A DNA stretch of 64,000 bases, taken from Cylindrospermum sp. FACHB-282. GTDB taxonomy: Bacteria; Cyanobacteriota; Cyanobacteriia; Cyanobacteriales; Nostocaceae. Of the stretch, positions 43,239-47,691 are shown piece after piece. The position numbers and the translations under genes are program-made. The stretch spans positions 62,001 through 126,000 of the forward strand of contig NZ_JACJRJ010000002.1 of the NCBI RefSeq assembly GCF_014697195.1. The letters are read 5' to 3'. The notes beneath the pieces were generated by a model. The model searched no databases. It was not told the DNA's origin and saw only the letters and a list, made by a program, of their open reading frames with translations. The first letter of the stretch is position 1; the number at the start of each line of letters is the position of its first letter.

Positions 43239-43480
43239 GAATCCACCAGATTAAGACAAAGCTGCATAAAAAAACATATTGGTAGGCTACCATGTGTGTT
43301 TTTAATTAGATCAGGCTATTTTTACTTCCAGGAAAAGCAAACCCTGGTCTACCCTGCTGGCAAAAAGTTATCAACTTGATCCTGAGCAAATCTAAAACCC
43401 AGAATTTGCATCGAACAAGCAGTCATAATAGTTGCTACAGGTGGTTTGGGCAATTTAAAATTTTCACTTTTGAATTATTT

Positions 43481-44815
43481 ATGACTGTTGCTCGCACGAT
43501 TTGTTTGGGATTTCTGGCTGTCATCCTGGTGGGAACCATGCTGTTGATGATGCCTTTCTCAACTAGCAGTGGTACGTGGAATGACCCGATTGTGGCACTA
43601 TTCACCTCTACCTCGGCAGTTTGCGTTACAGGCTTATCAGTAGTTGATCCTGGTACTTTTTTTTCTTTTTGGGGTCAGTTGTTCATTGCACTGTTAGCTC
43701 AAATTGGCGGTTTGGGCTACATGACAACCTCCACCTTTCTAATTTTGTTAATTGGACGGAGGTTTGATCTACGGCAAAAAGTAGCAATTCAACAAGCTTT
43801 AGATAGACCAGGAATGAGTGGTAGCGCTCAAATTATCCGCTCAATCATTGCTACAACTATGATTTTTGAAATCACTGGAATATTGTTATTACTACCAGCT
43901 TTTGTTCCCGATTATGGATGGAACCAAGGACTGTGGTTGGCAGTATTTCATAGTGTTAATGCTTGGAATAATGCGGGTTTTAGCCTGTTTAAAGACAATT
44001 TAATTGGCTATCAATCATCTTTTTTAGTCGTTGCGACGATTACAGGATTAATTATATTTGGTGGCATTGGTTATCAGGTAATTTTAGATATTTACCTTTG
44101 GCTGCGCGATCGCCTACAAAAAAAGACACAGGCTTTAGTTTTTTCCCTAGATTTTAAAGTTGCTACTAGCACAACCATAATACTTTTATTGCTAGGAGCA
44201 ATTGCATTTTTCTGTATAGAGTTCAGGAACCCTGAAACATTTAGTTCTTTGAGTTTACGTGACCAGTTATTAGTAGCTTGGTTTCAATCAGTTACGCCTA
44301 GAACTGCTGGCTTTAACACCATTGATATTGGAAAAATGACCGATGCTGGTTTATTTATTACAATTGCCTTGATGTTTATTGGTGCAAGTCCAGGTGGTAC
44401 GGGAGGTGGGATAAAAACAACAACCCTGAGAGTTCTTACCAGTTGTACAAAAGCAATACTCCAGGGTAAAGAAGAAGTTTTACTATATGATCGCAAGATA
44501 GCAATATCCTTAATTTTGAAAGCTGTTGGGGTATTGGTGGGTTCAATAGCAACCGTAATTCTGGCAACGATTTTAATTAGTCTCACAGATCCCAAATTGG
44601 AGTTTATTCAAATTCTATTTGAGGTGGTATCAGCCTTTGCTACAGTCGGTCTTTCTACAGGCATAACTAGTAGTGTTTCTATAGCAGCAAAGCTGATATT
44701 AATTATCACAATGTATATTGGGAGAGTTGGTGTTTTATTATTTATGTCAGCTATATTAGGCGACCCCCGTCCCACTAGAATTCACTATCCTGAAGAAAAT
44801 TTACTAGTAGGATAA
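43481..44815 (+). CDS. ktrB: KtrB/TrkH-type K+ uptake subunit
   Basis: About 444 residues from ATG 43481; the frame opens 105 bp earlier at a TTG (43376), but that stretch is AT-rich and poorly coded. Membrane protein with the four M1-P-M2 repeats of the SKT family; pore-loop glycines are visible in TSTSAVCVTGLSV, VNAWNNAGFSL, TPRTAGFNT and AFATVGLSTG. With KtrA it forms a Na+-dependent K+ transporter. ktrA follows 137 bp downstream. Confidence 0.9.
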   Translation: MTVARTICLGFLAVILVGTMLLMMPFSTSSGTWNDPIVALFTSTSAVCVTGLSVVDPGTFFSFWGQLFIALLAQIGGLGYMTTSTFLILLIGRRFDLRQKVAIQQALDRPGMSGSAQIIRSIIATTMIFEITGILLLLPAFVPDYGWNQGLWLAVFHSVNAWNNAGFSLFKDNLIGYQSSFLVVATITGLIIFGGIGYQVILDIYLWLRDRLQKKTQALVFSLDFKVATSTTIILLLLGAIAFFCIEFRNPETFSSLSLRDQLLVAWFQSVTPRTAGFNTIDIGKMTDAGLFITIALMFIGASPGGTGGGIKTTTLRVLTSCTKAILQGKEEVLLYDRKIAISLILKAVGVLVGSIATVILATILISLTDPKLEFIQILFEVVSAFATVGLSTGITSSVSIAAKLILIITMYIGRVGVLLFMSAILGDPRPTRIHYPEENLLVG

Positions 44816-44952
44816 TTCAGCAGACATGGGGAAAAAATGACAAATATAGATTGAGAAAAAGATATCAAGTTTCCACAGCATTAATTTGCAAATTTTCCAT
44901 CAAAATTATAAAATGGAAAATTAAATAACAAACAAAAAATGACTAGTAAATT

Positions 44953-45648
44953 ATGAACCTTTCATCATTAAATTTTTTTCGCACTTTACGTAAAGATAAC
45001 CAGCAATTTGCCGTAATTGGGTTAGGTCGTTTTGGTCGATCTGTCTCTTCTACACTGCATAATTTAGGTTATCAAGTCCTAGCCACAGATATTGATGAAA
45101 AGCGGGTATGCGAAGCATTAACTGAAGAAATAGTCAGTCATGCCTTGCAACTAGACTCAACCGAACCAGCCGCCCTTAAAGAAGCTGGTATTTTTGAATT
45201 TGATACCGTCATTGTAGCGATTGGTAATTATATTCAAGAAAGTATTATTACTACTCTCAATGTGAAAGAGGGTGGTGTACCCCACGTAGTTGCTAAAGCA
45301 TCTAGTGAGGTTCACCGCAAGCTGTTAAAGCGAGTCGGTGCAGATCATGTAGTTTTTCCTGAGTATGAAGCGGGTTCTGCCTTAGCACGTACACTTACCA
45401 AACCATCAATTCTAGAGCGATTTGACCTCGACCCAGATCACAGCATTGTAGAGTTGATTGTTCCTGATGAATTTCAGGGCAAAACCATCACCGAAATCCA
45501 ACTTCGTAACCGTTATGGTTTAAATGTGTTGGCGGTGAGTCAGGATGGTAAATTTCAAATTAATCCTGACCCGACTAAGCGTCTAGAACGTGGTTCGGTA
45601 ATGGTAGTTATTGGCTGCAACAGAGATATTAATCGCTTGCCAATTTAA
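44953..45648 (+). CDS. ktrA: KtrA, NAD(P)/ATP-binding regulator of K+ uptake
   Basis: 231 residues. TrkA-N Rossmann domain (AVIGLGRFGRSV, TDIDEKRVCEAL, residues about 20-140) followed by a TrkA-C domain (IVELIVPDEFQGKTI..., about 155-225). It forms a ring that gates KtrB. Same strand as ktrB, 137 bp downstream. Very similar RCK logic appears in the antiporter at window start. Confidence 0.93.
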   Translation: MNLSSLNFFRTLRKDNQQFAVIGLGRFGRSVSSTLHNLGYQVLATDIDEKRVCEALTEEIVSHALQLDSTEPAALKEAGIFEFDTVIVAIGNYIQESIITTLNVKEGGVPHVVAKASSEVHRKLLKRVGADHVVFPEYEAGSALARTLTKPSILERFDLDPDHSIVELIVPDEFQGKTITEIQLRNRYGLNVLAVSQDGKFQINPDPTKRLERGSVMVVIGCNRDINRLPI

Positions 45649-47012: not shown

Positions 47013-47172
47013 GGGAATAGGTGGTTTATTTCCGCCAACCTTTACTAGAAAAAGCAGCCACTCCACCTGTGCCAACAGTAAGCGCAATCATTAAGAAATT
47101 ATTAAAAATAACATATAGTTCTTAAGTAATGCCTGAAAATATTGAATAATACATTCAACAACTAAATAAAAA

Positions 47173-47199
47173 TTAGCACTCTCCCCTTGCAAGTGCTAA
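47173..47199 (+). promoter_or_regulatory. CIRCE operator (HrcA binding site)
   Basis: TTAGCACTC-N9-AAGTGCTAA, with one mismatch to the consensus TTAGCACTC-N9-GAGTGCTAA. It lies 141 bp upstream of the unknown gene at 47341 and 420 bp upstream of the leftward TPR gene. No groEL or groES gene is near. HrcA represses heat-shock genes through CIRCE. Confidence 0.85.
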
Positions 47200-47340
47200 T
47201 TATTGACTAAAGTTAAAGACCTATGACATAGACTAAAATTCTACTTTTTTGTATAGAGAGAATTAAGTACTATTTCAGAAAAAAGTTTTAGTGAAAACTT
47301 AAGCTTCGATACAACTGAATTAATCTTTGGGAGAACTAAA

Positions 47341-47691
47341 ATGAAGTACACTTTTGATATTGTTGGAGTATCTCCAGTTTTGTACTTTTTTAATCACCAA
47401 CAGCAAATTCGGCAAACACCACAGCCCCAATGCGTGGAATATCTAGGAACGCATATTTGTACACTGGATGCATTTTTAGGATCTGTAGAATCAGTTACAA
47501 CAACCTGGGGTGGTAATCTAGATCAAGTAATAGAAACAGTAGTTCAATTTTGGTTAAATAACTCAGAGAGCGTTAACTATTGGAAAGCACGTTTAATTGA
47601 TGCTGGTAGGGATAATTTACTAGTAGCCAGGGTAGCCGATATCCAGGGTTTACAAGCTGAATTTGAATCCCTATTAGGTAAAAATTGGTGA
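47341..47691 (+). CDS. unknown small protein downstream of a CIRCE operator
   Basis: 116 residues starting after GGGAG at 8 nt. Aromatic-rich N-terminus (FDIVGVSPVLYFF), then a region with GTHICTLDAFLGSVESV. Probably soluble. No domain recognised. Placed 141 bp behind a CIRCE element, so heat-shock control by HrcA is likely; this is inference. Homologues probably exist in other Nostocales, but I cannot check. Confidence 0.65.
   Translation: MKYTFDIVGVSPVLYFFNHQQQIRQTPQPQCVEYLGTHICTLDAFLGSVESVTTTWGGNLDQVIETVVQFWLNNSESVNYWKARLIDAGRDNLLVARVADIQGLQAEFESLLGKNW

Follow-up and report, generated by a model that had tools for sequence, protein, structure and literature searches.

One of the distinctive features of the 64,000-nucleotide stretch of Cylindrospermum sp. 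FACHB-282 DNA analysed here (the window) is a CIRCE operator that stands away from any groE operon, in front of a 116-codon gene for an unnamed cyanobacterial protein family. From comparison of sequences, this gene is very probably a third target of the repressor HrcA, induced together with GroEL, and that the operator and the gene belong together is close to certain. The preliminary description of this DNA had spoken of a nearly perfect HrcA site that is not at a groE operon, and this is borne out, with one mismatch in 18 positions; its proposal that the cyanobacterial HrcA regulon has a member outside groE finds good support in the comparative evidence, and hrcA is present. The gene would be a new member of the known HrcA/CIRCE regulon.

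The operator and the gene

The dyad lies at 47173..47199 on the forward strand and reads TTAGCACTC-TCCCCTTGC-AAGTGCTAA. As TTAGCACTC-N9-AAGTGCTAA it agrees with the consensus tested, TTAGCACTC-N9-GAGTGCTAA, at 17 of 18 bases, and the single mismatch leaves the inner pair 9:19 as C:A, not C:G. It is the only match with three or fewer mismatches in the 64-kb window, for which dinucleotide shuffles expect 0.02, a number that already speaks against a chance palindrome. Across the 113 contigs of the genome (6.1 Mb) there are three CIRCE places at the same threshold; the other two sites are perfect, one before groES (L002) and one before a stand-alone groEL (L001), for which we use the name groEL2. 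The repressor is encoded in the same genome (hrcA at G000:C76, PF01628 match, E 7.6e-60). The nine-base spacer of the groES CIRCE, as seen at L002 and at presumed groES sites in other genomes (e.g. G033, G078 and G107), is nearly constant, being AGGAGTTGA or its complement, with AGGAGTCGA in a few; the spacer at the 116-codon gene varies, unlike that of groES.

The gene occupies 47341..47691 on the forward strand, stop codon included, and its ATG lies 141 bp downstream of the dyad. A probable ribosome-binding site, GGGAG (47329..47333, forward strand), stands 7 nt before the ATG, and a GGGA stretch is found at the same place in many rows of an alignment of 28 selected upstream regions. Among 145 sampled genomes of the same family, 134 have a match to the gene, in 129 of these without an internal stop, and identities run from 87% down to 57% with the window's own genome excluded. 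By this evidence the open reading frame is a real gene.

Two candidate -10 elements recur in the upstream alignment, both on the forward strand. The first, an extended -10 TGACATAGA at 47224..47232, appears as TGATATAGG or similar in many relatives and would place the CIRCE just upstream of the -35 region; the alternative, TAATAC at 47147..47152, would place it in the early transcribed region. A promoter consensus scan gave three sites against 3.1 expected and so does not fix the transcription start; neither candidate is among its sites, and its weak promoter-like match at 47091-47119 is at chance level. In Synechocystis the groES transcript starts within the CIRCE loop, according to PMC2662882.

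Conservation in the Nostocaceae

We use the name Nostocaceae for the window's family (f1), a label drawn from its named relatives Nostoc, Anabaena, Cylindrospermum, Fischerella and their kin. Among named genomes a protein search gave 84 relatives; 80 were kept, and all of these carry a CIRCE upstream. In 79 the site has at most three mismatches and lies 113-362 bp before the ATG, inside the 500 bp considered; the remaining one, L070, has a site at 512 bp and another at 557 bp. Because these 80 had been picked by similarity to the query, loci from whole genomes were examined too. Of 48 non-identical loci fetched, 47 have 400 bp of upstream sequence, and every one of the 47 has a CIRCE with at most four mismatches within that distance; shuffles expect 0.15 such sites and give none at three or fewer mismatches. 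The 47 overlap partly with the 80, some of the genomes being the same. Identical loci were dropped from these whole-genome locus counts, here and for the other groups below, and the numbers did not change when copies were removed more strictly; L107 of the window's family and L119 from elsewhere, each with less than 400 bp upstream, were excluded. Conservation in 80 of 80 named relatives and 47 of 47 whole-genome loci refutes the reading of the CIRCE match as a chance palindrome, which had the one mismatch to the consensus in its favour and for which we retain practically no probability.

The three-site arrangement recurs as well. Among the 17 of the 145 genomes that were listed, 16 carry exactly three CIRCE sites of no more than one mismatch, and one of the three lies shortly before the 116-codon gene; the exception is G009, where two sites of two mismatches each stand at the gene. 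The remaining two sites per genome were identified as those of groES and groEL2 in the window's genome (G000) and are presumed to be so in the rest; among the 17 genomes listed, the presumed groE sites are perfect with one exception.

When named and unnamed loci are pooled and the best site per locus is taken, 110 distinct Nostocaceae sites result at the 116-codon gene. Positions 2-5, 8 and 22-26 are invariant across them. The inner pair is broken in 88 (C:A in 55, C:T in 21, C:C in 8 and others in 4) and retained as C:G in 22. The broken pair may weaken the operator in the window's family, and a slightly imperfect operator suggests a lower affinity and an earlier or looser control of the gene. 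The distance from CIRCE to ATG varies among loci, and some loci have tandem sites, two at L070, three at L105 and L166 and at least three at L148. Those upstream of the gene at L148 are identical CIRCE-like sites, TTAGCAGTC-N9-AAGTGCTAA, repeated with a period of 57 bp.

The gene and its operator in other cyanobacteria

With a profile built from close relatives, the gene was found in 79 of 120 genomes of an order sample and in 122 of 291 of a class sample. A wider profile found it in 58 of 194 phylum-sample genomes, all 58 of them in the window's class, the class of 116 of the misses not being given. The gene is also found in the distant family f34, which we infer, with the flanking genes among the bases, to be picocyanobacterial; 37 of its 121 genomes have the gene. 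A CIRCE with at most four mismatches within 400 bp precedes it at 24 of 32 f34 loci, where shuffles expect 0.05, and the dyads sit 85-112 bp before the start. Outer positions are often altered on both arms, as in CTGGCACTC-N9-GAGTGCCAG and TCAGCACTC-N9-GAGTGCTGA, and many of these changes keep the dyad. In 14 f34 genomes picked from the 37 with the gene, the core GCACTC-N9-GAGTGC occurs one to three times per genome, and in 12 of the 14 a core site stands at this gene, G654 and G665 having no core there. A groES site was seen in four f34 genomes (G485, G719, G668 and G665), and these four groES operators have the same kind of outer variants (TTGGCACTC, GAGTGCCAA and GAGTGCCAG). The two targets can differ letter by letter within one genome: in G719 the gene has a perfect site and groES an imperfect one. 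Two other core sites, in G386 and G654 (L305 and L308), lack flanks of this kind, are not accompanied by groES and are probably chance matches.

These variants bear on another interpretation, in which the dyad would be an RNA hairpin or a terminator-like leader element and not an HrcA operator. The dyad can pair as RNA, and many of the outer changes in f34 keep the pairing. What is conserved, however, is the letters and not pairing alone, the inner pair being broken in the 88 of 110 Nostocaceae sites described above; the same element stands before groES and groEL2, and nothing resembling a terminator came up at the dyad in a consensus scan. We consider a purely RNA-level element very unlikely.

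Between CIRCE and ATG, 22 of the 32 distinct f34 loci have a second palindrome, TGTTC-N5-GAACA with no more than one mismatch, some 65-84 bp ahead of the start codon (L231, L233, L235, L269-L276, L279, L280, L284, L286-L290, L292, L293 and L295). It is absent near groES at the four f34 loci examined. A further regulator might bind it as an operator, or it might act at the RNA level.

In the other cyanobacteria, 18 of 110 loci have a CIRCE with at most four mismatches within 400 bp, five of them perfect, where shuffles expect 0.1. No CIRCE lies within 400 bp at the remaining 92 gene-bearing loci, and HrcA control is thus not essential to the function of the protein. A quick tree of 151 proteins requires 18 changes of the CIRCE label, in which gains and losses are not separable, and the figure is rough, the tree being built on few columns and leaving many forks open. 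From the window's family it includes every third row; L159, L170 and L240, rows sharing their first 70 residues and rows with less than 400 bp upstream were left out. Conservation of the pair of CIRCE and gene, which the preliminary description had put forward as a check, thus extends to two distant clades in which the pair is kept, and the pair recurs in others.

Co-occurrence with the repressor gene

In the class sample hrcA is present in 268 of 291 genomes, that is, in 120 of 122 with the gene and in 148 of 169 without it (Fisher p 6e-4, uncorrected for relatedness). The two genomes with the gene and without hrcA are G505, which is 69% complete and has a partial gene, and G013, which is 99% complete and has no hrcA candidate. 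G013 is a single-contig genome of 3.8 Mb from the window's family, and its locus (L147) keeps the gene together with a CIRCE of two mismatches; possibly the repressor was lost there. Of the 145 Nostocaceae genomes, 11 lack the gene. Ten of these were checked and every one has hrcA; the gene is therefore dispensable to the HrcA system. In f34, six genomes that lack the gene were checked, and hrcA is present in three of them and missing from the other three.

This distribution would be compatible with a protein that feeds back on HrcA, as an anti-repressor or a stabiliser, and is in this way itself a regulator of the groE genes. The CIRCE before the gene in distant clades and the near-constant company of hrcA (120 of 122) agree with such a role, but hrcA is common without the gene (148 of the 268 hrcA-bearing genomes have no match to it), and no structure or domain hints at binding to DNA or to HrcA. 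Feedback on the repressor is in our judgement improbable.

The protein

Members of the family have about 107-123 residues, and the window's protein has 116. In an alignment of 98 rows L42 and W71 are invariant, and Y3, F5, G9, F17, Q20, Y34, C40, D43, W58, W81, L85, R97 and L104 are kept in at least 90%. By eye, the sequence shows no obvious signal peptide and no obvious membrane span. The window's protein (P0001) has no Pfam or NCBIfam match up to E 10, and its 98 relatives have no match to GroES or to small heat-shock proteins among the 25 of 28 families listed per library. A ClpS profile matched one of the 98 relatives, at E 0.11, which does not place the family among the ClpS-type adaptors.

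The Pfam and NCBIfam matches of the 98 relatives are scattered; the best (E 8e-5 for a family matched by 6 of the relatives and 3e-4 for one matched by 3) are to unrelated proteins and were set aside. A weak local similarity of about 60 residues to a YbaQ/HigA-type helix-turn-helix regulator (PDB 2eby) was treated as chance, because its E value of 1.2e-4 with 64 close relatives worsens to 2.3e-3 with the 98 diverse ones, and the helix-turn-helix antitoxin phrog_1381 reached an E of only 0.004. The other PDB matches, at E 0.03 or above with the 64 close relatives and 0.7 or above with the 98 diverse ones, include no credible relative. AlphaFold models built on 64 and 36 sequences of the window's family have a mean pLDDT of 47 and 42, and these low-confidence models suggest the order beta-alpha-beta-alpha-alpha-alpha-beta-alpha.

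When the flanking open reading frames were clustered, no operon partner was conserved across groups. Recurrent neighbours are found within families: an ATP-grasp gene in the window's family and AroF/G-like and sigma-factor genes in f34, as we take them to be from their sequences. A transporter-like gene lies upstream on the opposite strand at 57 loci of the window's family and 16 others. As no neighbour is constant, the gene is probably a single-gene unit. Elsewhere in the window, two adjoining genes at 43376-45648 look like a pair for potassium uptake; from the sequences we presume one product to be a membrane protein of the TrkH type and the other an NAD-binding protein of the TrkA type.

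A model for a probable third HrcA target

In the model that the sequence evidence strongly favours, the 116-codon gene would form a heat-shock unit of its own, controlled by the repressor HrcA. Without stress GroEL would keep HrcA active, and HrcA would bind the CIRCE before the ATG and repress the gene; when GroEL is occupied by unfolded protein, HrcA would become inactive and the gene would be switched on together with groESL and groEL2. HrcA binding and feedback through GroEL are established for other targets and would apply to this gene by analogy, and its induction by heat is predicted on the same grounds. The product would then assist or adjust the chaperonin system, either as an accessory linked to GroEL or by handling client proteins. 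An accessory role suggests itself first because the only co-targets are chaperonin genes; its basis is co-regulation, and we propose it tentatively, as a possibility somewhat short of probable. Since a switch of the groEL type precedes its gene in distantly related cyanobacteria, the protein probably belongs to the chaperone response and has been overlooked there.

A heat-protective role outside the chaperonin system is about as likely. The gene would still be an HrcA target, and its product would act elsewhere, for example in protecting a photosystem, the phycobilisome or translation in the heat. That all matches were seen in the class of the window's genome is what would be expected of a phototroph-specific role, and the occurrence of the gene without CIRCE in many lineages and the lack of a neighbour conserved across groups are in keeping with it. 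It is weakened by the fact that HrcA regulons usually consist of chaperone genes; the other targets in this genome are only groES(L) and groEL2, and the CIRCE has repeatedly been gained or lost before this one gene (the 18 changes on the poorly resolved tree). We regard this role, too, as quite conceivable without its being the probable one.

To return to a protein of the chaperonin system, the preferred reading can be extended to a previously unrecognised, cyanobacteria-specific accessory that joined the HrcA regulon, or stayed in it, in lineages as far apart as heterocyst formers and picocyanobacteria and that acts on GroEL or GroEL2, whether as adaptor, alternative cofactor or HrcA modulator. 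The Nostocaceae operator would then be tuned by its commonly broken inner pair, so that the gene would be induced before groESL or would relax differently from it. In this full form the proposal is speculative and on balance rather unlikely. Of what the preliminary description had suggested, membership of the regulon is well supported; a chaperone-associated or protease-adaptor role is a possibility to which no domain, structure or neighbour points.

A third target kept across deep branches would name a specific uncharacterised protein in the chaperonin response, and would bear on the reason for several chaperonins in cyanobacteria and on the helpers of the unusual GroEL2. With one gene and one operator in genera with tractable laboratory strains, it offers a clean test case.

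Comparison with known systems

The K-box, in the pattern that we take it to have, is found exactly before groES in the window's genome (L002:1446-1461) and is absent near the 116-codon gene, where the best match, with two mismatches, lies inside the open reading frame and is at chance level. With CIRCE present and the K-box missing, the gene resembles groEL2, which in Stigonematales is reported to carry a CIRCE and no K-box (PMC5381637).

In the portions of the literature consulted, CIRCE and HrcA are tied to groESL, groEL2 or general heat-shock genes (PMC2662882, PMC4755962, PMC5381637, PMC7760821, PMC8400943, PMC2758279, PMC4390874, PMC4227741 and PMC5904260). According to PMC7760821, microarray data on an hrcA mutant of Synechocystis pointed to effects on additional genes that have no CIRCE. 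The hypothetical protein of PMC7734504 is a different one, similar to the chaperonin 10-kDa subunit. A CIRCE before a gene like this one is not reported in those portions of the cyanobacterial CIRCE/HrcA papers, including PMC7734504 and PMC1978210; a prior listing in subscription papers or regulon databases is possible. HrcA regulons may have non-chaperone targets in other phyla too, possibly in Chlamydiota (PMC12038028, where HrcA and CIRCE are treated alongside a protein outside the classical chaperones); that system concerns a different phylum and a different protein. The closest counterpart is the cyanobacterial HrcA/CIRCE regulon of groESL1 and groEL2, which has the same operator, a genomic set of three sites and the repressor present. 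Unlike groESL1 and groEL2, the target described here is not a chaperonin gene, and the inner pair of its operator is usually broken in the window's family.
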